From: Antennarius striatus
Taxonomy: Eukaryota; Chordata; Actinopteri; Lophiiformes; Antennariidae
NCBI RefSeq assembly: GCF_040054535.1
Contig: NC_090796.1
Location: 9,353,501-9,417,500 of the forward strand
Length of the DNA stretch: 64,000 bases
Direction of reading: 5' to 3'
Under the pieces are notes generated by a model. It was not told the DNA's origin and did not search any database. It saw only the letters and a list, made by a program, of their open reading frames with translations. Each line of letters opens with the position of its first letter. Positions within the stretch are counted from its first letter, which is position 1. A program made the translations under genes and the position numbers. Below are positions 1-61,233 of the stretch, piece after piece.

Positions 1-355
1 GCATGCACACACCCACCTCACTAATACACTAGGTTAAAGGCATCAGGAGAATTCTTCACAAACATGTGTCTCTGTCACTCACCCGACCACACAACACAGT
101 CGCTTGTGTTTCCACTGTGTCCTCTGTGTTCACGACACACGGCTGGCAAACTGCTCTCTCTTTCTCCCTGGAGATGGGAGCATAGATTGTATATTCCTGA
201 TCTAACTGCAGCTTTTTCATTGTGGATTTACTTATTATTTTCTGATCAAATTTATTGATTATTTGTGTTTTTAGGGGAGGAAACAAGATTAAGACATTTA
301 TTTGGTATTGATCAAAGGTTCTGCAGAGGTCTCTCAGTTGTGCAAGTCTTCTGAT
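1..355. other. 5' flank of the hrc-like gene
   Basis: No coding exon was recognised. The stretch presumably holds the promoter and 5' UTR of the acidic-protein gene that begins at 356. An in-frame ATG-less extension upstream of 356 is open but does not look like protein, and the hydrophobic signal peptide begins only at the ATG at 356. Confidence 0.4.
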
Positions 356-2570
356 ATGGCTGCTTCAAAATGTTGGATAATGGGGCTCCTGCTGCTCCTC
401 CTGTGCCCATTCCAGCTCCCCCACGCTGATGTCGTAAGTGACCAGGAAACAGCTGAAGAAGAATTCCACGACAAAATTCTTGAGGAGCTTGTAGATCAGG
501 GGAATGAAAATTATGAACATGGAGAGGAAGAGGAACACATAGCAACAGAGAAAGGTGAAGAAAATGGGGAGGAATTAAAACATATACATGAGGCAGGAGA
601 AGAAGAAGAACAGGATGAGGCTGCTGAAGAAGAGAAGGATGATGAGGAAGAGGAAGAGGAAGAGGAGAACTTTGTTGAGGAGGATGAAGTTGAAGAGAAA
701 CTTGCTGAGGAGGCCAAGGATGCCGAGGAAGAGGAGCTGGAGACGGAAGAGGAGGCTTCTGAAGACGAAGATAATGTGGGGGAAGAAGATGCAGAGGAAG
801 AGGAGATAGCAATGGAAGAAGAGCCTACTGCAGAAGAGATGCAGGAAGAAGAAGAAGCTGCTGATGAGGATGAGGAGGAAGAAACTGCAAGGGACGAAGA
901 GGATGATGATGCAAATGAAGAAGGGGCAGATGAGGCAAATGAAGAGGAGGAGGAGGAGGAGGAGGAGGAGGAGGAGGAGGAGGAGAATGATGATATGGGG
1001 GACAAAGAGGAGAACGTGGAGGATGAGGATGAGGATGACGAGGAAGATGACGAAGAGCATGAGGAGGAAGAGGAAGAGGAGGAGAAAAATGATGATGAGG
1101 AGGAGGAGGACGATGAGGAGGAGAGGGATGATGATGTGGAGGATGAGGATGAGGACACGGACGAGGAGGCCGTGGATGAGGCAGCAGAGGAAGAGGAGCT
1201 AACTGAGGAAGAGGAAGTTGATGATGCTGAGCAGGGAGAGGAAGATGATATTGCTGAGGATGACTCAGATGAAGAGGAAGCAGCAGAAGAAGATGGTATT
1301 CTCATTCTTTGACATGTTGTGCTGTTATTATGTTTATTCCCATTATTTATGGGTCTGTATCAATCAAACTGACTGCGATCACATGAATCCTTCTGACTCA
1401 ACTTGGCTGCATGAACTCCGTCACACATTTCAGTCCTGAAATAGACCCGTTAATGCATGTGGTCACTGGCAACAGCAGCATCTCACCATTCATGCCCTGT
1501 ATTGAACCAGTGCGGCTATTCTGAGACACTACAGCAGGTAATGAACAAACCCTTTGAGAGACAAAGTCCTCAAGTCATAATGGGAGTCACTGAAACACAT
1601 ATTTCACATACAAATGAGAGAATCTTGTGTATTTATTGTATGTGGACAACAAAATCCTCTTCTTCCATTGAGGGCAAGGCAGTCCAGTTGGACACAGAAG
1701 TCTCTATCTGTATCACAATCGTCACCCTCATGGTGTTGCACCAGGAAAAAGTCACTATCATCCTAGAGTTATGTGGTCACAATCAACTATCTAGTGTACA
1801 AAATATGTAATTTAACACTGTTTCTGACCCAACTCAAACCGTTAGGCCTCTGTATTTGTTGACACATACAAAATACTTCAGTGCCATCAGCCACTATGAT
1901 CTGTGGGCCCTCAAATGTAATTTAACTCTGAAAATCTAAACAGATGCTGAACATAGTGACGAAACAGAGGACCAAGACGACACAAATGAATTTGAGGCTG
2001 TGGCTGACGTGTTGCAGTTCCGTCCGGGATCTTGGTGTAGCGTTTGCTCCATCTGTGAGGTAAAAAGTAGAGCAAGGTGCCCAGTTTATCCATAGACTGT
2101 TTTTATTCAAATCACTTTTTGACCATATTGTAACAATACTGTAACATTGTTCCAATTTAAGCCATTTGCCATAAAAGCGTCCTGTAAAAGTTGAATGATT
2201 AATTATATTTATCCTCCTCAGCACTGCTCTAGTAGTTGTGAGAACTGTCCCTGTGAAGAGGGAGATGAGTCAGATCACTGCGACGATTGTGAAGTAAGAA
2301 TGTCCACTATTCAAAATACTGTAATAATACACACTGGAAGCAGAGACCATCTCCATTTCTATCCTTTTTCCCCCCAGGGATGTTCATCCTGCTATATTTG
2401 CCCCATATTGTGCAACACAATTTGCACACCAGGTAAATCCTGATAATGATTTCGTGCATATGCCATTGTTGATTTATTTTTTTGTCACTTTTGGCTTTCT
2501 AAGCATTTATTTGTCTTACTCTAATCTAGGTGGTCTTGTTGATGAACTAACTGTGTCCCTGTTTCAGTAA
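356..2570 (+). CDS. hrc: Histidine-rich calcium-binding protein (HRC)/aspolin-like acidic protein
   Basis: Five exons (356-1295, 1944-2059, 2222-2293, 2378-2432, 2530-2570) join in frame to 407 codons. The start at 356 was chosen because a signal peptide (MAASKCWIMGLLLLLLCPFQ) begins there. Residues about 56-313 are an almost uninterrupted Glu/Asp tract. The last four exons give a Cys-rich tail with CSVCSICEHCSSSCENCPC followed by a second Cys cluster ending CNTICTPGG. That tail matches the C-terminus of HRC, the sarcoplasmic-reticulum luminal Ca2+-buffering protein that works with triadin and SERCA; fish relatives include the acidic aspolins. By inference it is a high-capacity, low-affinity Ca2+ binder in the muscle SR lumen. 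Oddities are that the repeat region is Glu-rich with few histidines, and that the frame stops at VSLFQ, slightly earlier than I recall for mammalian HRC. A poly(A) signal lies 22 bases past the stop. Confidence 0.78.
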
Positions 2571-7945: not shown

Positions 7946-10900
7946 ATGCAACTCTTCTCCCTTCTGCTGGGCCTCAGTCTTGGAGCTGTGGTAGTACGTG
8001 GTGAGGAAATGGTTCTACTTAACAGACACTAAACATTCATGTTCTTGCCCTAGTTTTACACTTATCATTCTTATCAGGCAAGGGGCATAAAATGCTATTA
8101 TTTAGGAAGTGAAAAACCTGTTTTCTCAATTTTAAACCCAATTAAATATAGTAAATACAATGTTTTAACTATTTCTGATACTTGATTTACATCAAATAGG
8201 GATAAACGATGCAAGATAAAAGCGTGAATACCCCCCCCCCCCAACATCGTACATCATTTAAGCGACATTATTTGTTGTATTAATATTCTTCATGGTTGCT
8301 AGCTAACAAGTTGAAAAACCAATGGAATAGGAGAAAAAAGTAGGAAATTTTGTTTTTTTAATTTGAATTAAAATTTAACTTAGTAATTTATAATTAATTT
8401 AATAGTTTAAATTTTTAAATTTAAAAACCAAATGGCATTTTAATGGTGATGAGAACAAGGAGTATCAAATTGGTCGCAAGCCTAAGGACTGAAAACCGCC
8501 TGTCTTTACATGTTGAACCTTAAATATTTATCCATACAATAACAAATTCTCGTAACTGCAGTGGTATAAAAATTGTTCACGGGACCTGTCTCAGTTTGCT
8601 ATGCGCGAGAGGTATACTGTACAACACTCCTGATGGCAAAAGCTCATCCTGGGGTAAAAGTTTGATGAAATTAAGTGCATTTCCCTTAAATGTAGAGAAG
8701 AATAAAATTGCATGAAATGTGCACACAAATTCTTAAGTCTTAACTACGGGCCATCAGTAACTTTATTGTTAAATTCCATTTACAATAATTCTTATACAGG
8801 GAATTTGTTCATTACATAATGATAATAAAGCCGTGTTTTTTACATGTCATGCCCTGCAGCGGTCACAGTATCTTGGCTGTATTTCTGTTTCAGCTGCCGA
8901 CAGTCCATGGTGCTACATTGGCTGCAGTAAGTAAAGACATGTCTGACCTGTTGATTCATCTGGACCAAAGGGTTCAGAGTTCGTATTAAGAGCACGTCTG
9001 CTGTTTATAGGCAACACTCCGGCTCACTGGAAAGACCTGCCTGGTTCTTTCTGTGGAGAAAATAAACAATCACCTATAAATATAAATACCAGCAACGTTA
9101 AGATTGACCACAACCTGCCAAACTTCAGCTTCCTCAACTTCAGCTCTCAGCACGTCATCAAGTCCTTCATAAACAATGGGCATACAGGTACACAAAGTGA
9201 GGCGGTTGATTTACTGTTCATTTTGAGTTCAACATTTTTTTCATTTGGGGCAGGCTACAAAGGGCAAGAAAGTAGGATCTGTGCTGATCATACAGTATAT
9301 GGTTTTCTCTTAATTATAAATACATGATTTTCAACATTTCAGCAAAATTCATATTGGAGGAAAATGAAGTCGAATTGAGTGGAGGTGGTCTCAATGGCAC
9401 ATATTCTTCACTTCAGTTTCACTTTCATTGGGGTGATACAGTACTTCATCCAGGCTCAGAGCACAAGATGGATGGAAAACGATATCCAATGGAGGTACAT
9501 CGTCTGTCATTGGCATTTTGAATGAGCAACATGGATCTTTTTTCTCTGTTTTACGTTGCTTCTAATCTATTTGCAGATGCACATAGTCAGTATCAAGAAA
9601 GGTCTCACCACAGCGGAAGCCCTCAACTCAAAAACGGGAATTGCTGCTCTTGGATTTTTGATAAATGTGTGTCCTATACAATAGAAATGAGTTATGATTT
9701 CCCCCTTGAATAGCATGACTGAATGTAGGAGTGACTGTCAAACTACAGTAATTTGCACACCATGAAAATTATATCGCAAGTGTTAGAATGTCTTCTCCCC
9801 AAAGGGAACAGAGGATGGAGATCCCTCGAGTCCGTGGAGTAAGCTCACATCTTACCTGACAAACACTGAAGGTACAAGATAAACAGTTCTGCTTCAGTGA
9901 GAGATATGATTTGTTGCATGAGAAAATGTTGCTGTACAGAAAGCCAAGGCTTAAACACTACACATTATACATTTTCAGCACCATGTCAATGACATTCTAT
10001 CACTTAACCGTGAAGCTGAGGATTACACCTTTATCAGAGCCTGAAAATTTTTGCCTTAGGACATACCCTGTCAACCTACTGTTCAAATGCCACTGTGACT
10101 GGTATCTGACTGCCAAAAGACTACGTGAGACGACAATGGCGTGACTCGTCTAGGGTTGACTGATGTTTGTCATTCCTGTTCTCAGACAGATCATTGGTGT
10201 TTTAGAGCTTTCCTAACAGACTGCAAAAAAGTATGGCCATGTGCTTAAAAAGTGTGTTTGTGTATAAAAATACTATATATATTGCTGTGTGTCTGATGTC
10301 TTCTCAGATGTTGAAGTGACAATAAACCATAACATCTCTATTGATGATCTGATTGGTAATGTGGACCGCACTAAGTTCTATCGATACATGGGATCCCTCA
10401 CCACTCCGAACTGCAGCGAAGCAGTTGTGTGGACAGTCTTTCAAGAACCAATCATCATTCACGAAAGTCTGGTGAGTCGGACATGTGGGACATCTTTGTT
10501 TTGCAGGATGAGAGGAGTAAAGGCTTAGTTTATTGTTCAAACAAATCAAAGAAAATACCCAATACTATAGAATAACAGAACCAGCCAAGTGGTGCGAGTA
10601 AAGGCTAGCTCAGGTAACTTACATTCTGCAGTCAGTATTCTCATAGTAACCTATCACATGACAGTGAATGCAGGATCATGACCCTATTATGCAACTTCCT
10701 CCTGCTTCAGATTTTCAGCTCATTGTTTACCTTTAGATCTTGCAAGGGTTTGATTTTAACTCACTTGTTAATGTTTTTAAACAATCATGAGTACCAAGAA
10801 AACTAGAAAAAGCATCAGATTAATGTCATTGATAATTATTTCAATGCCCACTACCTGTAGTAATTAAGTCAACAGATTCAGGTAGTTCATAGGGCAAAGT

Positions 10901-13900
10901 CTAATCATTATACTTGTGTTGAAAGAACAGACAAGGTTGGCACAGTAATTTGAAATTTTCTTGTGTACTCTTTGTAAATAATTGTTCAGTACAGCTTATT
11001 TCATGATCTGACTGAACTGAATCTTGGGACAAAACACAGGATGGGAAACTTTGTCCTTGTTTCCATTTTCATCTAGATAAGGACATGATGGCAAGGTTTG
11101 GGTACATAATGGGGCGAGCTGGTTTCTAGTTTGATCATCTGTGATAAGGGTGTTTTTCTATGAGATGTAACAACAAACAAAAAAGTTGCACAAGCTGCAT
11201 GGGATGTATGAAATGACAAACATTTGAGTAACTTGTGACTGTAGATTGACAGGCAATCTTTCTCCATCTTATCAATTTGACAGCTTTCACCACTCAGATG
11301 CACTTGTCTGCAGGTGCCCTGTTCTCTGGTCTGTACAGTGGCTTGGCAGGTGGATGACTATCTCAAGCATTAAGAAAAATTAGAAATATGTTTGTTCACA
11401 CAGATAGTATTTCAGGATGTCATCTTGGTTTCAGCCAGCTCTTTAAAAAATAAATAAATCACCATATAGTTGTGATTTTGAAATGTACTTTATGAAGATG
11501 ACTGGTTTTCACCCCAAACAAGTTTCTTACACCAAATCGAGTCAAAAATGTGAAACTGAAGCGCACACCTTTTCTTGTGCCCATGTATTTTATTACTTCT
11601 ATTTATATCTACCACCTACACTTGGTTGTGGATCCATTAAACTTGACTGTTAATCAATGATGAACTCAATTGATTTTTTTTTACACTGTTTACAGAGGAT
11701 TGGGATCAGCAACATATTTTTAGATAACCTTCTATGTTTCCTGATAATGCATGACAAATTAACACCATACCTAAGTGACGTCAGTTGAGTGTGTAACTAA
11801 CTACACGTCATGGGCATCTGTAACATCTTCCTCATTTCTGTTAAACCACTCAAACTGTTTCATAACTCTATGATTCACTAACTACACGGTCATTGGACAT
11901 AAAAAAAAAACTACAGGATTTTCTGTAAAAGCAAATTTATAAAAACAAATTTCAATTATTTGCACGCCCCTCAGCACCGACTTAGATGAAACTGAATATA
12001 CTGTAGATAGGACAACATGCTAATATTAACTATGAAATGTTTAGCAACCACTGGATTCTGTCATATTTTAAGTCGATGTTAAAATCAGGAGGAATCCACC
12101 ATATTTCCAAGGTGATGGTGTGTTTTGTTTGGATGTTTGTCAGTATATAGTGAGTCAGATTGAGATAGTCAGTGGTTGTAACAAATGTATGAGTACAACA
12201 CATATTTATGAGAGATTTCTATTGACGATGGTAGTTTTTTAAATAATGAAGGCAACGCCTCCTATGATGCTACACTATTTGCATCTCATGACATAACCTC
12301 CATATTGAGCATTCACACTGTTAACACACATAAAGATGACATCAGGTTGGGACCAATCCCGACACCAAGCTTCCACAAGTGTTTGGTTTGAGTAATCATC
12401 ACAGGTAACGGGCGTCCACACCCAAAACTCCTTCAGTCCACAATCCCCCTCCGCTGCAGCCACATCTAGTTGTGCATTCGTAACTAGAATATTATCTTAG
12501 CAGCACTATCACAATGGCAGATTTTTTTTAATCAATGCTTTTTCTTCTCTTTTTAGATTAAAATGTTTCCCAACAAGACAGGGCATACCAATATTTTCCG
12601 GCCTGTGCAAAAGCTGAACGAACGCCAAGTATATGCCTCCCCTGCAACCACAACCAGTGAGTCGGAAAATCACTAGAGCAAGATCCTAAATATTTAGCAT
12701 GTTATATATGTATTGACACATGACCTATTTTTTTAGTTCATGAATGGTGTTATGATGACAGCTGTGGTAAGTGATTATATACAAATCAGATGATGACTGG
12801 ACATTTTCCACTGTTAATGGGATTTGGAGTTGATTTTCTCTGCCCTCAGAATTTAGTCCATCGAAATGGCACCTTCTGCCTCATTCCTTCTGCAATGACA
12901 AACGCCAGTCACCCATCAATATCGAGACGGAAAGTGTTGTGACGGATGAGCATCTCAGCGCTTTCACCTTCAATAGATTTAACGACAAAAAGGCATTTGG
13001 GAATGTCACTAACACGGGCCACACAGGTTTGAGTCTTCTCTTATATCACAGGCTGTTAGGGTTGTTTTTTTGGGTTTTTTTGAGAACTGTATTTTTAGTA
13101 ACGGTCAAGGGATTAACAACTGATTTCTCAGTTAGTTGTCAAAACATCAACAGTTTCAATAACTAATTTTTAGTTTCAAGCTCAGTGCCCTCTCAAATAT
13201 GGTATCATACTGCATTTATCTGACAAATGTAACTTTGCCAAACAAATGTAAGTGTTTGTGTTAAATGGAAAAAGGATTGCACACTATGGTGATCCCTAAC
13301 GGGGCCAGCCGAAAGGAAGTTAAGCATGTGAACATTTTAGAGCTTTTTCACTTTATCTTGTCCTCACCCACCTCCCAGTGAAGTGTAAGTTGAAGGAGGG
13401 AGTGTGGCTCTCAGATGGTGGACTGGGACACAGATACAATACCATACAGCTTCACTTCCACTGGGGTTCTTCATCACAAGTCTCGAACGGCTCAGAGCAC
13501 TTAGTGGATTCACAAAGATACCCAATGGAGGTAGGTATACATATTAAAATATGGTATGGTTCCTGTGAAAGCATTTTCAGTGTATATGGTCTGTCTTTGT
13601 GTCATTGCGCAGATGCACATTCTGAGCCTGAGGGCCGATTTACAGTTGAAGGATGCACTGAATGAAGACAATGGCCTGGCAGTTCTGGCATTCTTTATTG
13701 AGGTAACATTTAGTGAGACATCTCACATATGTCCATAGTTCTGGTTCAGAATCCACACTTCGTGTCCTAACTGTGAATAGGTTTAAGGGGCTAGTGTGCT
13801 CACATTGGGAAAAGTAATGCAATAATTATTTACACAATTTTTCTTAGAAGAAAAAAATAATCCAGTTGTATTTACTGTGTACTTAAAAAACACTGCTCTT

Positions 13901-15420
13901 CACTAACATGGTGCTAAAAAAAACACAAAAAGGATATACTCAGCTACTAAGGACAAAATATTGCAACCTAATGTTGAAAAAATATCCAGTTACAATTAAA
14001 GAAGAAAAAATGTTGCATGCTCCAAGTTTTTATGGCAGTTTTAAGTCTCAATTTTAGATCAACTTTCTAAAAAGAAAGTTAAAAAGTCAAGTTTTCTATT
14101 TTTGTCTTTGTAATGAACATTTTAAATCATAACACTGAATATAATTCCCCAACATATTGGAAACATGATGTAACAGGTGAAGAGAAAACATCAAGCTGAC
14201 AGCTTGATTTTCAACACTTGGTGTGACATTATTTGCTGTCACATTCCAGCCTTTAATCCAGCTGCCCTAGATAGGTGAGAATGTTGCATTCTCTATCTGC
14301 TGTCTTTCATCAATGAGTTGGTGCTCCTCTCTGCAGGGCTTGAGAGGTGTTATTATTTTCTTTGTCTTAAGGACAGGATGTACAGTTTAGCAGATTCTTT
14401 TGTCACTTCACAAGTACAAAAATGTTTATACTTTTGGTATTACCAAGTACGGGTAGATCCAAGAATGTATTTTGCAGCTTTATAAACTGTAGAAATGAGA
14501 ACACACAAATCTTCTGCACTTACTTTATAATTTTACAATCCATTTTATTTGAAGGAAACATGTATCTTTATCTCTACTAACTTTCTTGCAATTGACTTTT
14601 CTGAACTCCAAGGCAAACAATGAAGCCAAAAGCAGCGAAGATTCAGAGCAGCAAGACGTAAGTGACTTATCTGTCTAAACCTGCAGACTCTTGTTTCTCC
14701 ATGGTCAAATGTCTCTTAATCATTCAATGTGCTTACCTCTAGACAAATCAATCAGATATGGAAGCATGGAAAAAACTAACAAACTATTTTTCAGCTATTC
14801 AAAATATCAGTAAGCTAAACGTCTTCTGTACATAATTTATAAACGACGACAAGAGGACACACAAATATGTCACATCTTGTATATTTTTGCTTCCATTCAG
14901 GCTCTGAAGTTGAAATTACTGACGATATCTCTATTGATGACTTGATTGGTAACGTGAACCGAAACGATTACTACCGCTACAACGGCTCCCTAACCACCCC
15001 AACATGTAATGAAGTGGTTGTTTGGACAGTCTTCAAAGAGCCTATCAAAGTGGACAAAAACCTGGTATGTTACTTTTTCTTGGTGCTGGTTATTTTCAGC
15101 TTTAATGAAAGTCAAACAATCATCCTGGAATGAAATCCAAGTGGCACTTGGGTATTTTGTTTGTGACTTTTTGTGTTCAGTCAAAGTGAAAAATACATCT
15201 GCAGTCTGTTGTAAGTGATCATTTAAATTTTCTTCAACACCCCCAGATGATGATGTTCCCGAATAAGGCAGGATATGAGGATGTGTTTCGACCCAAACAA
15301 TCACTTCATAGCAGGATAGTCTACTCCTCCAAAAAATCAGGCTGCAGTGGCCCCCACTCAGTCTCACTGTTCCTGCTGCTGACTCTGACGTCATCCAGTT
15401 TGCTTCGGCTGGGTGAATAG
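7946..15420 (+). CDS. Tandem two-domain, GPI-type alpha-carbonic anhydrase (CA4/CA15-like)
   Basis: Sixteen exons join in frame to 578 codons: 7946-8000, 8894-8926, 9011-9187, 9343-9494, 9577-9666, 9805-9871, 10308-10471, 12557-12656, 12737-12766, 12850-13026, 13379-13530, 13613-13702, 14613-14657, 14743-14809, 14901-15064, 15247-15420. A signal peptide (residues 1-18) precedes domain 1 (about 19-279) and domain 2 (about 280-555); a hydrophobic end (about 556-578) suggests a GPI anchor. Each domain keeps the zinc histidines (H115, H117, H141; H374, H376, H401), gate Glu (E128; E388), Thr199 equivalent (T223; T498), proton-shuttle His (H87; H347) and the CA4-type disulfide pair (C44-C227; C304-C502). 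Both should hydrate CO2 at the outer membrane face. Unit 2 has no signal peptide or start of its own, so two separate genes are unlikely. Family assignment is strong; the two-domain transcript is inferred from splice signals and phase. Confidence 0.85.
10472..12556 (+). other. Long intron 7 of the tandem carbonic anhydrase gene
   Basis: The 2.1-kb intron separates the Thr199-bearing exon of domain 1 from its last exon. No coding exon, repeat tail or RNA gene was recognised; the other introns of this gene are all shorter. Confidence 0.6.
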
Positions 15421-15441: not shown

Positions 15442-15447
15442 AATAAA
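15442..15447 (+). promoter_or_regulatory. Poly(A) signal of the tandem carbonic anhydrase
   Basis: AATAAA lies 22 bases past the stop. A second copy at 15702-15707 could serve a longer 3' UTR. Confidence 0.5.
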
Positions 15448-22334: not shown

Positions 22335-24476
22335 ATGAAGTTGCTTGTTGCTGCAGTAGGCTTACTTGCCTTGTGCGTCCACCCGAATGCAGCAAGTAAT
22401 TCAACCGGTAATTCAACCTTTTTCATCTTGGATGCGTAGTGATTGAACTACCAAATTGTTGCTGCCATGAGAATTTGAGTAACTTCTGTCTTTTTTTATT
22501 TATTTTTTTTAGAATGGTGCTATCATGATCCAGCATGCAGTGAGTAATCCCTGTTTAACTTCCTATGACCACGATCTCTTGCTGAGTATTTGAACCTTTG
22601 TCTTCTTTTCCTTAGATGACACCACATGGCCAACTCTCTTTCCTTCGTTTTGCAATGGCAATCGGCAGTCTCCCATAAACATCAACAGCTCAGACACCAC
22701 AGTCAACGACAACCTGACTGAAATCATGATTACGAACTCCAGTGTGAACGGCTTTCTGGATAAGATCGAGAATACCGGCAGGACAAGTGAGTGCTGGGCG
22801 TCTGCAAACACGGTCCCAGATTCAATTTTAGGCGTCTTGGGCAATGGACAATAATTTTCTTTTAAAATTGTGTAATTTCTCTGCAAATTTTATTTATCTC
22901 ATGGTTAATTATCATCTCTGAGATGCATCATAGACAGGAAAGTGCACACCTTTTACTTTTTGGACGTCCTAAAATGATGCATAATACAGATTGTATGCTT
23001 CTCCTGTTCACATTTAATTTGAATTTCCTTTTTTTTTTTAAACCTCTACAGTTAAAGTCAAATTTAGAAAAGGAATTGAGTTTCACGGAGGAGACCTAAC
23101 TGAGAGTTATGAGGCCCTGCAGTTCCATTTGCACTGGGGTAATAGAACTTCGGTGCCTGGTTCCGAGCACACTGTGAATGGCATTCGCTATCCAGGGGAG
23201 GTACTACATTCTATTGTTCATGTTGAGATTTAATTACGAGGTTTTGTTTTTTTTTCGATACAACGGGTCTTTATTCAACTGAGGATGTTTTTTTTTGTTT
23301 TTTTTTAACCACAGATGCACATAGTAACTATTAAGAAATCTCTTAATGGAAATACGTCTTTAGGAACAACAATCTCTGATGGATTTGCTGCTTTTGGCTT
23401 CTTCATTGAGGTAAGAAAAAGACAAAACAAAAATAATGCCATTAAAATTGTCCGTCATAATATTTCATATATCAACCACGGCTTTAAGTAGTTGATAGAT
23501 GACATCCAGGCCAAATAAAAGTTAAATAAGAATATAAATGAAAATTTCTTTTTTTTTTTTTTTTTTTTAAATAAACGTGCTTTTAAAAATCAAATCTTTC
23601 TTTATTTCTTTCGTTCGGTCTTTCTTTCTTTTTTTAGGAGTCGACAAGTTCATCTGCATTATCTGACAGCTGGAGAACCTTGTTAAACGACCTGAGCAAC
23701 ATCTCGTTTTGTGGTGAGGACATTGGAAAAGGGATTGGATTGTGTTTGACAAAATATATTCTTAAGCATCACAAAATCCAAACTATAGTGAACAAATTTC
23801 AAGCAATTATGAGAGGGTAGCGCAATGCTTATTCATGTACAAATTTATTTTCCTTAATATAACCAAATATGCAGAAAATTGTTAGTAATTTGTCCTTGAG
23901 AAATCTTAGATGTGCTGCCCTTTCATAATTTGAAATATGGTGATTTTTTCCCCCAAACTTGTCAATATTGGCTGCAGTCTGTTCAGAGGTCATATTTCTC
24001 TCCTCAGACACATCTATCGCTGCACCTTCTGGAGTCTCACTGGATGATCTCATCCAAGGGGTGAATCGCTCCAGCTATTACCGCTACCTAGGCTCGCTAA
24101 CCACCCCAAATTGCTTTGAATCTGTGGTTTGGACTGTGTTCAAAGAACCAATCGGCCTCAGCAGTGATGTGGTGAGCTTTTGGTATCTTTTTTTTCACAA
24201 TGATGCAACTACATAGTCAGAAAAGTCAATATAATTTTTTTCAACACTGTTTCTCACAGCTAACATGCTCCAATATTTTGTCTCCAGATTGATCTTTTCA
24301 GCACCTTATACATTGGCGCCAATGCTTCATCACCTTTAATGATCAATGTCTACAGAGGCATCCAGGACCTGGCCCTGACTGTCACAACACAGCGGGAGGC
24401 CACGGAAAGCTCTGCCTCCATGATCTTCTACTCTCTAGGGCTTATTGCCCTCAGCCTTTTTGTGTCCTGGAGTTAG
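22335..24476 (+). CDS. GPI-type alpha-carbonic anhydrase (CA4/CA15-like), single domain
   Basis: Eight exons (22335-22407, 22513-22539, 22616-22786, 23052-23200, 23315-23410, 23638-23713, 24008-24171, 24288-24476) join in frame to 314 codons. It has a signal peptide ([15 protein letters not shown]...), one alpha-CA domain and a hydrophobic C-terminus ([19 protein letters not shown]) suggesting a GPI anchor. Zinc ligands H116, H118 and H142, gate E129, T229 (Thr199 equivalent) and the C46/C233 disulfide pair are present. It should catalyse CO2 hydration at the cell surface. The residue equivalent to proton-shuttle His64 is Arg89 (NTGRT instead of NNGHT), so turnover may be slower or use another shuttle. 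Splice phases, and the 164-base exon 7, match the tandem gene upstream, so the two are probably tandem duplicates. CA4 and CA15 cannot be separated by eye. Confidence 0.92.
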
Positions 24477-28611: not shown

Positions 28612-31600
28612 CTAATAAACAGCCACCAACAGAAGAAAGAGAATGAAAGTGAGCCAGCTACTTCTGAGGAAAGAAGATGAACCCTTTAAGTCACAGCTGC
28701 ACTCCTTTGGGAGTCGAGGATTGACTGTGTTGGGGGGCGCAGAGGGAGCCGGACATCTGAGCCAGTCCACAGCGATGGATCGAGGAGTAACTACTTCTTG
28801 ATTTAGTCCTCCATTTTTCAGTACCCAGTAAAGGTTGTCCTTGAAGAAGTAGGCATCTCCTAAAGAGTAAGAGCAGATCTTTAATTGCATCGTGATTAAA
28901 TCGTTATAAACTCAGTGACAAAAAGGTAGTAATAAGAGCAACAGAGTGGAATAATTCCATTAGCTGCTCAACATGTCAAGAGGGAAATTCTATCTGTCCT
29001 GTGTAGCTGAAGCCAAAAAAATGATCGCGCTTAAGTATGATCTGTAGTCTATAATTATGTGAGACAGGTTTGATGTTTTGGCTTCCCTTTGTTTATGACT
29101 AAGTGTATGGTATGTTGTCATTCAAGCTGGAGAGTTGATTCACAACATTTCCTTTTCACATTTTTCTATCTTCTCTCTTCTCTTTATTTGAAAACGCTTT
29201 ATACTTCTCTGGCTACTTGTTCAAGCCTCTCGAAAAATGCCCTAACCTTAAAATAAACACATTTAATACTGATCTCACAACATATTCAGCCCTCAGACTG
29301 CAATATTACCTTCTCCCCAGCTGATGATGTCATCCATATGGGACGGTACTCCAGCCCAGAGGCTGTTGTCTCGCGGGTAACCTGAATCTGGCTGCCTATT
29401 CACGTGTTCGCTAGTGTGACTCTCGTCAAATCTCCAAAATTCTCCCCCGCTGAAGAGGTACGTTTTCCCGTTGTGGGCCCAGATGAAAGCTGCCTCCACA
29501 CTTTCCACCAGTGCTCCAAACTTGCTCCGCATCCCCCATTCAGCGAGGGGTCGGGGGTAATTGGGCATGGCCACTGTGTCTTTGAAGACCCAGTACTGAG
29601 ATCCTGGATATATGGAGGAAAGTTTGAGGGGGAAATTGTTTGTGCAGGAATTTTGTAAGGTTCACAAAGTTTGCAAAACGATAACATCAGATGATAAATG
29701 TCTCACCGGTTCAACATGATGATTGATAATTGGTTAAATATAAATAGTCTTTACATTTCATTTATTACTCTTGCTGATGAGGCAGTAAAATAGCTGGTAT
29801 AATAAAATAAATCCTCTACACAAATAAGATAATTGCACAGTCATGATTTTTTGCACATTCATGATTTTTTGCACATTAGACACACTGTACAACTGTTTAT
29901 ATTATTTTTATGATTATTATTTATTACACCATACTGATACAATCACTCAAAATGACAGGAGTCATAAGCAGAGGATCATGTCCCTCACCAACGAAGAAGA
30001 TGATGTGACTGTCAGTCTTCCGCTCATACACAGCATCAATCTTACTCATTCCAGGAGGAAAGCCAGTCCAAAAGTTTTGAATTAGAGCCGGCCTGAGGGA
30101 CACTAAAGACCCGTCTCGTTTCGTTCTCCAGAAGTGTGCATCTTTCAGAGTAAGACACGATATATTCATATATTCAGGAACAATGTAGATGTTGTGAAGA
30201 ACAAGTCTCACATAAAAAATAAGACATTTAACATGAGCTTAGATTCTGAAGTTCATTTTGTGTTAGTTCTACCTTTAAAGAAGAAGACCTCTCCCCTGAT
30301 ATTTGCCACAGCATCAAAGCCTCCCTGACATCGCTCATGGAATGTGGGATCAGAACTGTGACAGACAAGTCATTGCCAAAACTCAAAAAGTCATCACTAG
30401 TGCATACAAAGAGATTTATCTGTCTGCATTCTCCTGAAAGCACACTAAGGATGTTCACTGTATAAATGACAATGACAAGAGCTTATTGTCTGGATAGATG
30501 TGTAGTGGTTTCAGCTTTTCTCTTGCTCTACTCACAGCTGTGTTGGTCTGGCGGGAGGGGGTCTGGGTAAACCCGGCAGGTCAGGATCAACACCACCTGG
30601 TGGCCCCCCATCTTTCACACCTATGATGAAATGGTGACAACAAGAAGCACAGAAGTGGAAATCAAAGCCGAATGAACAACCCAGCTTACTCTCTTATTTC
30701 TTATAGTTAATTATGATCATTACTATTTCAAGACATCTTTTTTCTTTACTAGGACTTTAATAAACCATATAAGCTATAAATTAACAATGATCATGTTTAC
30801 CTGACAGTAACAATTTCATATGATATGAAAAGTGATATCACAAGAAAGGAACGTGGGGAGACTTTGAAATGTACTGGAGACAGGAAAAACTGGACTGATC
30901 TGTCCGATGGTTTCTGCCAACATTCATTCATGGGTCCTAATCATCAGTTTAAAAATCATCGTGCTTTCTGACTGAAAATGCTTTGCTCTAACGATGTTCC
31001 CATGAGCTTGAGCTGCAACTGATTCTATTTCAAGTATGAAATTGTGCTGTCTGAAAAGGCTTACTGTTGTGTTACTTTTCAAAAACTTCAATCAGTGCTA
31101 CCAAGACAATACAATGTGAAATACAGTAGGCAGGAACACGACAGATGACATTTTATTCATGTTTCACATTTCATTAACTCTGAACTGTGTTCACCGTAGT
31201 TCATACTGAATACATGAATTCATGAATCCATTCAGGTGGATGGAAGGACGGTTAGACAGACAGATAGACAGACAGACAGATAGATAGATAGGTTACTGAC
31301 CATAGAGCTGCTGAATGGCCATCTTGTCGTCCAGATCCAGCTTGAAGTTGGCGATGTTTTCCACAGGCCCCTGGTAATAAGGCCTCATGATGGACGGATC
31401 AGAGGAGGAGTGGGACAGGCCCAGCGCATGGCCGAACTCATGCACTGCAACTGTGAACAAATCAGTGCTGCCGCCATCACCTGAGGATGTGTGAAGCAAA
31501 AGTGTTATACGGTCACATAAATGATTAGAAATCTAGAGTGTGAGCTCACGGTATGAGCAAAGAACTGGCTTTCATTTTTATGATTCCCAGACTTCATTTT

Positions 31601-34600
31601 GCAATCAGTCTTCAATCCATCATAAAACCATTAATGACGATTTCATATTTATATTGGTCATATACTGTACCTCCATAACTCCAGCTCTCATGATCATCAA
31701 AATGTGTGTCACCGGCCACTTCATCCCTGCCTGGAAAGAAAGCGTGGGCCAGGGTGCCACCCGGCCCATCAAAAGGGTACCCGTCATCATGAAGCAAGCG
31801 ATCAAAAGACACTCTGATGTCCCCTCCAGTGGCCACTCCCTGGTGGTCGCTTGGCAGCTGACGGAAGATCAGCGGGGCTGCGTCGCTCCAAGCTTTGAAG
31901 GCATGACTAAGAAGTCTGTCCACCAAATTATTAGACAGGCTGGGGGAGAAGGAAGGCGATGGGTAGCTGTGGACACTTCAGAGAAGAATATGTTTAATTA
32001 GAATAAAGATGCATTTTTAATGATCCACTAAATCTGTTCACTATACTCTTCTAGACAATCCCTGTTGTTGTTGTTTTTTATGTTATCATTGTAAAGGCAA
32101 CATGGTTTTCTGTGACATAAAAGTTCTTCAGCTTTCTTCAGTGGTTATTTTCAAATTGTTTCTGGAGATACCAAGTTAGTGAATTAGCTAATATATTAGA
32201 TTTTTTATTATGCAAGTGTTATGGGGAAAAAAACCCTAAATGAAAAATCCTACTAACAAGTGTGACTTGTGTTGCTAAATAATGGGAACATTGATGGTTA
32301 TTTCAAATCGATAGCTTATTCCCCATCTAGTGGCTGCAGACTGTACGTAAGGTTTTAACTAGCTGTGAATAGACCCATGATGTGTCTGCTGTAGTCCTGC
32401 TCTGGTGAAAAAAGAAATGCCCAGCTGTTCCGCTGGCTTCATGTCGTTCAACTTTTTTGTTCTTGTCCCTGTGTTTTTTTTAATTACATAATTGCCTTGT
32501 TGTTGAAAGACACTCTACAAATAAACAGTTGTAAATGTAAAAGGTTCTTCTTTTCAGTTCCACCGAAGTCATGGTCTTCACTGTGCAAACCTCGATTTCT
32601 CAATCGTTAATCCAAGGAAAAATGAATAAAATGACACAACCAATTCCAGTTGAAGAAAAGGAGCAGCTCTTCGTTGGTTCTTTTAAACATATTTCTGGTC
32701 TCATTGATTGATTGAAAATCAGAGCTACATTGTCAAAATACAGCCTAAATTTGCTAACTGCTGCAGTGGTAAAAGAAACGCATGATAACAGTTAGTGACA
32801 CATAAAGGGAAGAAACACACACAGTGTCATGTGACAGGAAACACACCTCCATGTGAGGTCTTTCTTGTGCCACTTAAGGCCTGACAAAGCATATCGTCTC
32901 CTCCGTCTTCTTCTCCTTAGCATGTCTCCACTCCCAACAATATCCGGAAGGGAGCAGCGTGGTGTGGACATGAGTTTGAGGGTTTCACTGTCTGGATGAA
33001 GTTAATCATAGTTTAACGAGAGCAATGGCGCCTCACACAGCAGCCAGAACAATTTAACTCAATATAAACATGCCACATTTTACTGATTGATCTAAGTTTG
33101 AGGTTGTTACCGAGAATTCCAGTTTCCTGAACCCCCCCAAATCGCTGCATGACACGAATGGCTTTCTCAAGCCCATCTTTGGTCTGCAGTTTGCTTGTGT
33201 GTGGGTCAGGCGGAGGAAGATAGCCATACCTGCTCAACCAATCCTGGGCAAAAACACAAGGCACACCTATTAAACAACTTGAGTGAAAGCGACTTCTTCA
33301 AGATTGATTTTTCCGAGATATAACAGACGACAAAACATGACTGGGATGACATTTTAGTGAATGTGCCAAACCAAAAATAAGTTCTCATCTTAGGAATGAT
33401 GGACTTCGAGTCTGACAACCTCACATAGATACTTTGCTTTTGTTGTCTGACTGTAACTGCGTAAACATCTTCCACAGACTTGTGAGAAAGTACATCTGTG
33501 ACTCAGGCACAGACGGCTGCCAGACAGACTAGACATTATCCAGAACTCGTGCAGGTCCATAAAGATTACTACTGCACTCTATGCTGAAGGGGGGACAGGC
33601 TAATTACACACAGTGTATTTTCTCAAGTTGGTAATCATTGAAGGTTCACGAGGAATAAGGCACAGAAACTACCCAAAGACAATTTGTAAATAGACACAGA
33701 GGTTACTCACAATGGTAGGCTACATTTATTTCCTTGTTAATATGATGAAATCTTTTGTGAGTCACAATGGGTGTTAAAGCAAATGTTTGCCAGTTACTTA
33801 CAATAAAAAGCATAGAACATGTAAAGAATACATTGCAATTCAAAACAACAATGAATAAGACAGTTGTGGTGTTGTTCACGTCAATCACATTTACAGAAAT
33901 CAAAACCATTTACTTGATAGTGAGTTTGAAACAACCTGTCACAATGCCTCCACCTTCTGCTGTGGTTGCAGGAAGGATAAGGTGTTGGCTCACATAAAAC
34001 CGTCTTTCTGTGGGTTTTACACTGCAAAAAAAATATCCTCCACAGATTGTCTCATATTCTGCACAATACTTGTACTTGATCTTTAAAAATTCACTGTTTT
34101 ATGAAACATTTAAAAAATTTTGACAGGTAAAATTTTGCAAAATCAATTCACCTTATATCTGTGAATAAAGAAACCACATTAGTTCACATGGAAATGTGTT
34201 TAACTGCACTCATACACTAAAGGCCTCCTACAGGATGCAAACTCATCATGATAACTTTTATGATGATGGAAGTGAAACCAGACATTTTCCTGACAAACAT
34301 GACAAACAGATGTTCATACATGTGAAATTTCACCAAAAAATTGGCAGTATTGCACTTTTTGAGGAAGTGTGTGGGTGAAGTAGGCATGGAGATTTCCAAA
34401 CTCAGTTCCCTCTCGTGATTTGACCTTTTTGATGATTACAAATGCTGAACTCATTCATGTGTCTTCAATGCAAAGATTATATTTATTCTGCATTAAACAT
34501 CTACAGTAAATGCACAAAAGGATACACTGAGATTATTTTTCCATCTCATGTTTTAATTGAATGTTTTAATTCACTATTACTATATTCATTTACTTCTTCT

Positions 34601-49031: not shown

Positions 49032-52000
49032 ATGTCGCTAAATTCAAAATTCCCCACCATTTTTCTCTGCGTGATGGGTGAGTATGATCCGTTTATCCCT
49101 CCTGTCTCCTCCCTTCTTTTGTCGTTTGTTCGGTTCTTTGTCCACCTGTAAAACACAGATACCTGGGATCAGATTGCCCACTAAACCGGTTTCAAATTGT
49201 ACAAAAAAAGTCAAATTGCCACGGTTACAGTTAATCAGAAATGTAATTTCTACTGTATTTCAGGTGTTTTGGCCTCCTCCGCTCAAAAATGTGGCCGACC
49301 ACCGCTACAGCTGAACAGGATTGTGGGTGGGATGGACGCCATGGATGGGGCCTGGCCCTGGCAGGTGGATGTACAGGTGTGTTCCTCAGCAGGGCTTCAG
49401 CTCTAATCCTGTAGTTATACCCCAAAGTACAGTTCTGCAACACTTGATGTACATTAGATTTATCGGCAAAATATTTAGATATTTACAGTTTAAATTTCAA
49501 TAGTACAATAGATTTTTATTCTCTATTCTATTACTGACAATTGCAGTCTCACAATAAGCTGACCCACAATAACCTCCAGTAGCGCAAATCAGGTTTTGGG
49601 ATGCTGTGTTTTGGAACGACGAAACAATACGATGTTTGTATGATTGTGGATCAGTAGCATGTCTGCTGGAAGAAGAAGAGCGAAGCTCGAAAGAACACCG
49701 TGCCTACAGTGTCTCAGTGATGCCTTTGAGCTGCTTTACATCCTCACTTGAGAAACCCACAGCATGTAAGAGCATAAGAGGGATTCTGTCAAGTATCAGG
49801 ACATCCTAGGAGAAAATACTTCACCTTCTGTGAAGGACAAAAAGAGAAACTGTACATTCCTATCAGACAATGATCCCAAATATAAATATACCTAGGGTGG
49901 GTTTCAGAAGAATCAATGGAACGTTCAGATGAGGCCGTCATAATGGCCAAAACTGAATATTATTGATGTTCTGTAGTTGATTTGTTTTAGGAAGGTGGTC
50001 GCAGCACCTGAACCCTGGAACATTCCAGAACTGGAGGCTTTTGCCCCTGAGGAATGGGCTACAATTTTGTCTTATATGGGGAAAGCACTTGCAATACTTT
50101 TGTTGAGCCATTTAAAAATTTTAAAACACAGTGTGACTGAACAATGCTCCTTCCAGCTGCATGTGTGTTGAGGTGTAGTCCAGGTCTGGTGTATGAAACT
50201 GACCTGCTGATGGAGGGCTTTGCTTGTGATGCAGAGATGACTCACATTTTTACGCCCCTCTGCTTTCAGACACAGACTTCTGGTCATATCTGTGGAGCCT
50301 CTATCATCACAGAGAAGTGGGTTCTATCAGCCGCTCATTGTTTCCCGAAGTAAGACAATGCTCCTCATGTAATAAATCAGCAAGCGAAGTCACGTGTAAG
50401 CTCAATTCCACAGGCACCGTGCTTCGATTATGATCCATGATGCTCAAATCACATGATTGAAATTCTTAAATACCTAAATTTTGTAGAAGCCCTTCAGGAA
50501 AATCAGTCTCTTCAAGGAGAATGTGATGAATTGTCTTTTTCATCTTAGATATTTAATAAATGCAGCCCCATCGTTTTTTATATCTGACTGATATTTTATA
50601 ACTTCTCAATTTCTCACAATTTGTCACAAAATCTTGAGGACCGTTCCTCATCAATGTGATTCACTGACGTTCAGATCGCTGTGTGAGGGCCAGAATGTGC
50701 TGAACTTAAACTGCATGTGAACAAGACCTTTTTACTTTCACAGGAATGTGGTTAATCTTAAACTCATTATACAGAGCATGCGCAGGGCATAGAGACATTC
50801 TGGTCCCCTTTGTCGCTATAAAACGGAAGGCTCTCACATTTCCAGTTAGGCAGCAGGTTTCATTCACCATCTGTTTGCTTTCAGTCCATCTGATGTGAGT
50901 TCGTACATCATCTACGCTGGCCGGTACCAACTGAATGGACTCAACTTGCACGAGTCAAGTCACAGGATTAGAAAGGTGGTGATTCCAGAAGGCTATGTGG
51001 AACCTCACAGGGGGGGCGATCTGGCGTTGGTGGAGCTGTCCAGCCCAGTAACTTGGTCAGATTATGTCAGTCCCATCTGTTTGCCCTCCTCTGGCACCCT
51101 GTTCCCAGCTGGCATGCCATGCTATGTTACCGGCTGGGGTAACATTCGTGATAACGGTAAGGCTTCCTCTCATTGTGTTAGCATGTATGGAGAATGCTTT
51201 TACTCGTCAATTTAAAGTTTTACATAACTCTTAAAGCCCAATTCATTTTCTGTCTGACATGCTAATAAGGGAATAATTTATCCTTTGTATTTATGTGAAA
51301 GATAAGAACATCAACAATGTTGTGTACTTTTTCTTAGGGGCATTTTTATTAATTTTAAAATTTTGTATGCTTTGAATCATACAGCAGAGATATCATCAAA
51401 GGAGTGGGGGGGTTTTGGGGGGGGGTTACCACAGATGTTATATCTACAGTATATTTCAGTGTGTAAATGGAGTTGCTACACAAAGAATGCTAGAAAAAGT
51501 ACCAATTCAAATAATTAAAACTGCAATTTTTTGATCCCACAGACATCACACCATAATAGCGTATAGTCTGTTGCTCTATATTGCTCACAATATAGATTGA
51601 GTTTTCCGATAAAGATATGTAGACCGATTTAACATGTAGTGCAGCAGACCAAATTTAAACATTTCCCAATCAATGGAACATAAGTTTTCTCAAACCGTTG
51701 ATCGAATAGTGAACTCCCGTGTTCACTAACTGCAGTGGTTCCAATAAGTCTAGAATAAAGGTAAATTACCCTTTATATTAAACGTTAGAGGCCAAGGTAA
51801 TTATACTGAGTAGTAGCTCTACTTCATTTCTAAAATTTTTTTTTTTTTTAACTTTTCCATGTAAAGTTGGTTTTAAGGTGACTGAACATTTATCACCTTC
51901 TCTATAACATTTATCCAAAACAATGAATTTTTCAATGAGAGAACATCTTGCAAGGGAATCTTTTCAATCATACTAGGTTGAATGAATTCTAATCAAATTT

Positions 52001-53257: not shown

Positions 53258-59290
<6,033 letters not shown>

Positions 59291-59782: not shown

Positions 59783-59931
59783 TAAAGTAATTAAGAATAG
59801 CCCTCCATTTAGCCCTCCAATAGCCCTCCCTCCACGGGAGGCTCCGTCCCTACAAGGCGGCTGGACCAGATAAGGTCTCCCCAAGACTCCTCCGAGCCTG
59901 TGCTTCGGAACTAGGGGACCCCCTGCAACAA

Positions 59932-61233
59932 TTGTTCAACCTCAGTCTGCGGCTGGGGAGGGTCCCGTCACTGTGGAAGACCTCCTGCATTGTCCCTGTA
60001 CCCAAGAAAGGACGCCCTACTGAGCTCAACGACCACAGACCGGTCGCTCTTACCTCCCACGTAATGAAGACCCTAGAGCGACTGGTCCTGGAGCTCATGC
60101 GTCCACAGGTGCAGGGTGCTATGGACCCTCTCCAGTTTGCCTATCAGGCCAAGGTTGGGGTTGACGATGCTGTCATGTACCTCCTCCACCGCACACTCTC
60201 CTACCTGGACGCCGGGGGCTGTGCCGTCAGAGTGCTCTTCTTCGACTTTTCGAGTGCCTTCAACACCATCCAGCCCCAGCTCCTGCAGGATAAACTGACC
60301 TCCATGGCTGTGGACCCCTACCTCGTGAGCTGGATTACGGACTACCTAACGGACAGACCCCAGTACGTCCGTATGGGGGACTGCTTGTCTTCTATGGTGA
60401 CCAGCAGCACGGGGGCGCCACAGGGGACCGTTCTATCCCCCATTCTCTTCACCCTCTACACATCAGACTTCAAGCACAACTCGGATACATGCCACATACA
60501 GAAGTACTCCGATGACACCGCGATAGTGGCATGTATCCGGGAGGGTGATGAGGGGGGGTACAGGGCATTGGTGGCTGACTTCGTGGAGTGGTGCCAACAG
60601 AACCAGCTCCAGCTCAACGTCTCCAAGACAAAGGAGATGGTTCTGGATTTCCGGCGGGCACCTCCCTCTCCACAGCCGGTGATCATCAATGGCAGTGAGG
60701 TGGAGGTGGTAGAAAACTATAAGTACCTGGGACTGCAGCTAGACAGCAGACTGGACTGGTCACTCAACTCCAACTGTGTGTACAAGAAGGGGCAGAGCAG
60801 GATGTACTTCCTAAGGAGGCTGGCCTCCTTCAACATCTGTCCTAAGCTCCTTTTCATGTTCTATCAGTCCGTAGTCTCCAGTGTGCTGTCATACGCCATT
60901 GTGTGTTGGGGTGGGGGGGCCAGGAAAAGAGATATGGACCGTCTGAACAGACTCATCCGCAGAGCGGGCTCAGTGGTCGGGCTGAGCCTGGACTCTGTGG
61001 ATATGCTTCTGGAGAGCAGGACCATGTCTAAAATTAAGGCCATCATGAACAACACCAGGCACCCCCTACACACCACCTTCTCCCAGCAGAGAAGCACCTT
61101 CAGCGGCAGACTGCTGTCACACAGCGCCTCCACAGAGAGGCTGAGGTCCTCCTTCGTGCCCCGTGCCATCAGGGGGTACAATGACTCTCTCAGGAGGAGC
61201 GGGGGGGAGGTGGCGAGGTCAGCACGGGGTTGA
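59932..61233 (+). CDS. LINE reverse transcriptase (C-terminal part of ORF2)
   Basis: A 433-codon frame without interruption, also open further upstream to about 59830. Motifs, numbering from the ATG at 59932: FFDFSSAFNTI (catalytic Asp at 105), GAPQGTVLSPILFTLYTSDF (161-180) and YSDD (192-195, the YxDD active site), then a thumb/connection region with LQLNVSKTKEMVLDFRR and DRLNRLIRRAGSVVGL. It copies element RNA at a nicked target. The ATG is internal to the original ORF2, which was truncated on insertion, so it is a transposon fragment rather than a host gene. Confidence 0.9.
   Translation: MFNLSLRLGRVPSLWKTSCIVPVPKKGRPTELNDHRPVALTSHVMKTLERLVLELMRPQVQGAMDPLQFAYQAKVGVDDAVMYLLHRTLSYLDAGGCAVRVLFFDFSSAFNTIQPQLLQDKLTSMAVDPYLVSWITDYLTDRPQYVRMGDCLSSMVTSSTGAPQGTVLSPILFTLYTSDFKHNSDTCHIQKYSDDTAIVACIREGDEGGYRALVADFVEWCQQNQLQLNVSKTKEMVLDFRRAPPSPQPVIINGSEVEVVENYKYLGLQLDSRLDWSLNSNCVYKKGQSRMYFLRRLASFNICPKLLFMFYQSVVSSVLSYAIVCWGGGARKRDMDRLNRLIRRAGSVVGLSLDSVDMLLESRTMSKIKAIMNNTRHPLHTTFSQQRSTFSGRLLSHSASTERLRSSFVPRAIRGYNDSLRRSGGEVARSARG

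Follow-up and report, generated by a model that had tools for sequence, protein, structure and literature searches.

The closest counterpart, in layout, of the gene described here is an isoform of fish CA4, named CA4C in a figure legend, which a 2021 study of gill transcriptomes reports to contain "two consecutive CA domains" (PMC7918649). According to the passages of that study that concern this isoform, the carbonic anhydrase (CA) sequences were predicted from sequence assemblies of 14 Eupercaria species, CA4C is gill-specific in the icefish Chionodraco hamatus, where it is expressed at less than 5% of what the two main isoforms reach, and its duplication is regarded as recent and unique to Eupercaria; the tree, as described there, adds human CAs and teleost CA-related proteins, but CA4 genes from other fishes are not among the additions (PMC7918649). 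A second enzyme of this type is the DDCA of a giant clam (gigas), a gill protein of 601 aa with a signal peptide (residues 1-22) and two alpha-CA domains. In the relevant parts of its description, DDCA is said to resemble membrane-associated CAs (CA4, CA9 and CA15 for the first domain, CA4 for the second), and it has a predicted GPI site at Ala576 near the C-terminus and two predicted transmembrane stretches, one of them within domain 1, while phosphoinositol phospholipase C is cited as not releasing tgCA (PMC5879104). The same source mentions a double-domain CA, with two CA domains in one chain, from the alga Dunaliella salina (PMC5879104). No twin-domain CA was found in passages of a review of zebrafish CAs (PMC9032886) or of a paper on lizard CA IV (PMC10465503). 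A preliminary description of the locus knew of no double-CA chain established in a vertebrate; this can no longer be maintained, as CA4C is already known from Eupercaria transcripts (PMC7918649), and the gene reported here is a further example of a layout already known in fish rather than the first.

The gene is located at positions 7946-15420 (plus strand) of a window of 64,000 nucleotides of the Antennarius striatus genome, to which all coordinates below refer. Rebuilt from the raw sequence, its 16 exons exhibit GT/AG borders and matching phases and yield 1737 bases, i.e. 578 amino acids and a stop codon, which bears out the 578-codon frame proposed previously, with the reservation that exon 13 is doubtful. 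The encoded chain comprises one signal-peptide start, two full alpha-CA domains and one C-terminal hydrophobic tail of the GPI type. The twin-domain arrangement is therefore real and well formed, and the frame, the Pfam matches, the catalytic residues and the hydropathy all support the earlier view of one gene that encodes one chain with two catalytic domains, of the membrane-tethered type. We consider it highly probable that the gene arose by fusion of two CA IV-like genes that stood in tandem, and that it is of the same kind as the twin-domain CA4C of other fishes, the likeness to CA4C being judged from layout.

Exon 1 (7946-8000) contains the start codon and the signal peptide and ends in phase 1, and exon 2 (8894-8926) encodes the N-terminal Cys pair (WCYIGC). 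Domain 1 is encoded by exons 3 (9011-9187; QSPINI, the His64 equivalent in NNGH and the Cys23 equivalent), 4 (9343-9494; the zinc ligands of HFH and the glutamate of SEH), 5 (9577-9666; MHIV, with the third zinc ligand), 6 (9805-9871) and 7 (10308-10471; SLTTPNC), and by exon 8 (12557-12656), which contains the end of the domain and the linker (ASPATTT). Exon 8 is the homolog of a last exon, yet it ends at a donor site and lacks the GPI tail. The two units are separated by an intron of 80 bases (12657-12736) that is devoid of a polyA signal and in which read-through from exon 8 would reach a stop codon at 12674-12676. Unit 2 begins with exon 9 (12737-12766; HEWCYDDSC), the equivalent of the second exon, which is entered in phase 1, and its catalytic domain follows in exons 10 (12850-13026; QSPINI and the His64 equivalent in NTGH), 11 (13379-13530; HFH and SEH), 12 (13613-13702; MHIL, with the third zinc ligand), 14 (14743-14809; the counterpart of exon 6), 15 (14901-15064; SLTTPTC) and 16 (15247-15420; the end of the domain, the GPI-type hydrophobic tail and the stop codon). 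Exon 13 (14613-14657) is a doubtful or optional cassette of 15 residues. A polyA signal, AATAAA (15442-15447), starts 22 bases past the final stop.

The whole chain matches the Pfam family PF00194 in two stretches with E = 7.6e-139, far beyond chance, and the halves taken separately score 238.0 bits (unit 1) and 231.8 bits (unit 2) against a cut-off of 27, each over positions 2-253 of the 254 in the model. The closest solved structure for both halves is CA IV (1znc, the human enzyme; unit 1, E = 4.2e-43; unit 2, E = 2.9e-36), with the near-identical CA IV entry 5ipz ranking just ahead of 1znc for unit 1. Aligned to CA IV, both halves retain the zinc-ligand motif (HFHW here vs HLHW in CA IV), SEH, MHI, SLTTP and the proton-shuttle position in NxGH. 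The three zinc histidines, the gate glutamate, the Thr199 equivalent, the shuttle histidine and the disulfide cysteines, all previously asserted for both domains, are present in both. Each half possesses four cysteines of the CA IV type (the WCY motif with a second Cys nearby at the N-terminus, and Cys at the main-disulfide positions), and unit 2 contains two further cysteines, at residues 351 and 554. Unit 1 has IAALGF where CA IV has IAVLAF, and unit 2 has MHIL where CA IV has MHIV; substitutions of this sort in the CO2 pocket are tolerated. There are 13 N-glycosylation sequons along the chain, eight in unit 1 and five in unit 2.

The signal peptide and the GPI-type tail were judged from hydropathy alone, with a single-domain CA gene 7 kb downstream (22335-24476, plus strand; eight exons, 314 aa, with a signal peptide and a hydrophobic tail of its own) as the local control. 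The best 15-residue mean hydropathy is 0.36 at the end of unit 1, compared to 1.93 in the tail of unit 2 and 2.29 in that of the neighbor, and the value at the start of the chain (2.51), together with that of its tail, matches the earlier claim of one signal peptide and one GPI-type end. The features that characterize the GPI-linked CA IV group, namely the signal peptide and the C-terminal hydrophobic tail, are thus recognized here by hydropathy only, and the anchoring itself is predicted; the tail ends in the charged RLGE, which counts against the GPI reading.

Splice sites were scored with a consensus matrix, for which a level of 5 was taken as the reference. The donors range from 3.5 to 10.1 and the acceptors before exons 2-16 from 4.0 to 15.5; 11 of the 15 donors and 13 of the 15 acceptors reach at least 5, a level that, over the whole window, is attained by 6.9% of the GT and 8.9% of the AG dinucleotides. 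The splice signals, described initially as good, are therefore fair overall, but they are uneven, as four donors fall below 5 (3.5 after exon 10, 4.3 after exon 14, 4.5 after exon 6 and 4.8 after exon 3), and so do two acceptors (4.0 for exon 14 and 4.7 for exon 13). The 80-base joining intron has only a moderate donor (6.9) and a moderate acceptor (5.4), which counts against the fusion model. As for exon 13, its 45 bases (15 aa) are matched neither in unit 1 nor in the neighboring CA gene, the direct join of exon 12 to exon 14 keeps the frame (563 aa), and removal of the cassette improves the Pfam match of unit 2 by 11.7 bits (231.8 with it, 243.5 without). Because of this, a gene of 15 exons and 563 aa is no less likely than one of 16 exons and 578 aa, and exon 13 may be optional or no exon at all.

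We propose that two adjacent members of the GPI-linked CA IV family lost the parts that lay between them: the first gene would have lost its tail and polyA site, and the second its promoter and signal-peptide exon. Exon 8 of the first gene would then be spliced to exon 9, which in the second gene corresponds to the ordinary second exon, with both borders in phase 1, so that the frame would continue. Most likely, the single signal peptide would direct the product into the ER for secretion, and the mature protein would consist of two disulfide-braced, zinc-bound catalytic domains connected by a linker of about 10 residues (ASPATTTIHE) and held by one C-terminal GPI anchor on the outer face of the cell, which would place two sites of CO2/HCO3- interconversion on each anchor. 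What is seen directly is an open fused gene structure with intact domains and catalytic residues and with no separate 5' or 3' ends, save for one weak 5' candidate. The splicing of the 80-base intron in A. striatus, the attachment of GPI, the activity of both sites and a role at the surface of gill cells are inferred. Service to a high local CO2/HCO3- flux may be the role of the enzyme, and among the sites proposed for it the gill is favored, because CA4C is described as gill-specific in C. hamatus (PMC7918649).

The exon phases also admit a more elaborate reading, in which one gene with modular splicing gives rise to the twin chain, to a form with unit 2 only (exon 1 joined to exon 9), and to a form of unit 1 with the tail of unit 2 (exon 7 joined to exon 16). 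Both skips stay in frame and would give single-domain products of 317 aa and 303 aa, near the 314 aa of the neighbor; however, the kept phases can be explained by descent alone, and we regard this reading as unlikely, albeit the least unlikely of the alternatives to plain fusion. Slightly less probable still is a splice-selectable enzyme, with the locus making twin, unit-1-only and unit-2-only GPI-linked forms, perhaps switching the exon 13 cassette as well, and so setting one or two sites per anchor according to tissue. What makes the skip forms possible is that the ancestral intron phases survive in both of the genes that fused.

The junction itself bears on whether the locus is one gene or two. 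Exons 8 and 9 join in phase 1, which is the phase of the ordinary join between exons 1 and 2, and unit 2 opens at the family's second-exon equivalent, with no signal-peptide exon; no in-frame Met of unit 2 precedes residue 398, which lies beyond its first two zinc ligands. Two separate tandem genes would demand that exon 8 is read through to give unit 1 its end, as a secreted enzyme, and that unit 2 has a first exon of its own. The read-through does provide a short in-frame end, SESENH, followed by the stop at 12674-12676, but neither AATAAA nor ATTAAA occurs 3' of exon 8 before 13543, which lies in intron 11, well inside unit 2; the motifs at 11449, 11453 and 11636 are in intron 7, and a transcript that used them would stop short of exon 8. 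A start codon and signal peptide belonging to unit 2 alone, named beforehand as the observation that would speak for two genes, were looked for between the units (10472-12736) among stretches of 36-149 bases that run from ATG to a donor of at least 3 in phase 1. Six candidates were obtained, none as hydrophobic as the controls (best hydropathy 1.29 vs 2.27 and 2.98), and the best of them, a weak candidate at 11298-11349 with a donor of 6.3 in phase 1, sits in intron 7, so that its transcript would have to skip exon 8. The missing strong first exon is modest evidence for fusion, because, of 16 background stretches taken from the window (2265 bases each), nine contain one to four candidates with hydropathy of at least 2 and seven contain none. 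A scan of the junction for bacterial promoters and terminators was empty; these are bacterial models and have no bearing on a fish gene. With twin-domain transcripts known from other fishes, according to the account of CA4C (PMC7918649), we find it very improbable that the locus comprises two independent genes. The predicted phase-1 join over the 80-base intron, together with the missing inner ends, is the mark of a tandem-gene fusion. Least probable of all is the loss, during assembly, of DNA between two ordinary genes: five of the 11 different contigs among those listed have round sizes, as scaffolding may leave, but a random loss is unlikely to leave a phase-matched donor and acceptor and an intron of ordinary length, and the same architecture is described in the transcriptomes of other fishes (PMC7918649, in its passages on CA4C).

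Units 1 and 2 are identical at 123 of 258 aligned residues (48%), with pS of 0.756 (saturated) and pN of 0.364. Because synonymous sites are saturated at this value of pN, the duplication is old, and purifying selection has maintained both halves for most of the time since; selection before and after the fusion cannot be told apart, and the age of the fusion cannot be read from one genome. DNA repeats of at least 30 bases between the units fall into only two families, of 162 and 45 bases with 70% and 80% identity, and there is therefore no sign of a recent copy. The exon order and phases of the neighboring CA gene match those of the twin gene, exon 13 aside. In that CA IV-like neighbor Arg replaces the proton-shuttle His (NTGRT), so the enzyme may be slower or may use another shuttle. 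In a tree, unit 1, unit 2 and the neighbor group together (97/93), with a branching order among the three that the tree does not resolve, and the cluster falls on the CA IV side of the tree, which also contains three paralogs from the genome (support 81/89, not starred). The tree took 12 of the 15 CA loci fetched from the genome, two of them with three pieces and not four; the C6 locus (incomplete) and the C16 and second C18 loci (distant by eye) were left out. None of the 15 fetched loci, which comprise the matches and a few kb of flanking DNA, shows a second strong set of CA exons. They come from a list of at least 71 matches, and outside them lie matches on C5 near 11.58 Mb and near 24.2 Mb and on C21 near 2.4 Mb.

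Several other features of the window were noted, most of them by eye. On the minus strand, long open frames at 54697-58164 resemble a protein kinase of the ERK5-type MAP kinase kind, and open frames at 29296-31977 resemble exons of a hemopexin-repeat matrix metalloproteinase. On the plus strand, there is a long open frame similar to a LINE reverse transcriptase (59824-61230) and a fragment similar to an exon of a trypsin-like serine protease (50850-51212). In an open frame at 293-1309 (plus strand), the start is signal-like and leads into a very long run rich in Glu.

Among the known systems, CA IV (1znc) shares with the chain described here the N-terminal WCY motif and the catalytic residues, but it is a single-domain enzyme. 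The double-domain CA of Dunaliella salina, which is of the alpha class, also has two domains in one chain, although it belongs to a distant lineage and is likened here by description. CA4C is the nearest parallel, being CA4-like, with two consecutive CA domains, and one of several CA4-like genes in its genome (PMC7918649); it is described as membrane-bound. However, its duplication is called recent, whereas the halves of the A. striatus gene are 48% identical with saturated synonymous sites, and its account (section 2.5 and other passages) gives no gene structure (PMC7918649). What our analysis adds is the genomic anatomy, i.e. the exon phases, the 80-base joining intron, the single-domain neighbor and the old divergence of the halves, which shows where the two genes joined and which parts were lost, with both catalytic sites intact-looking, and opens simple tests of whether two sites per anchor alter the turnover of CO2/HCO3- at the gill surface. 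The giant clam DDCA has a similar plan, but it is a mollusc protein with a linker longer than that of the fish chain (domains at 43-285 and 315-564; PMC5879104, in its passages on the domains). The fusions in the giant clam and in fish were probably independent, and the similar plan of the clam gill enzyme suggests that such a fusion arose more than once.
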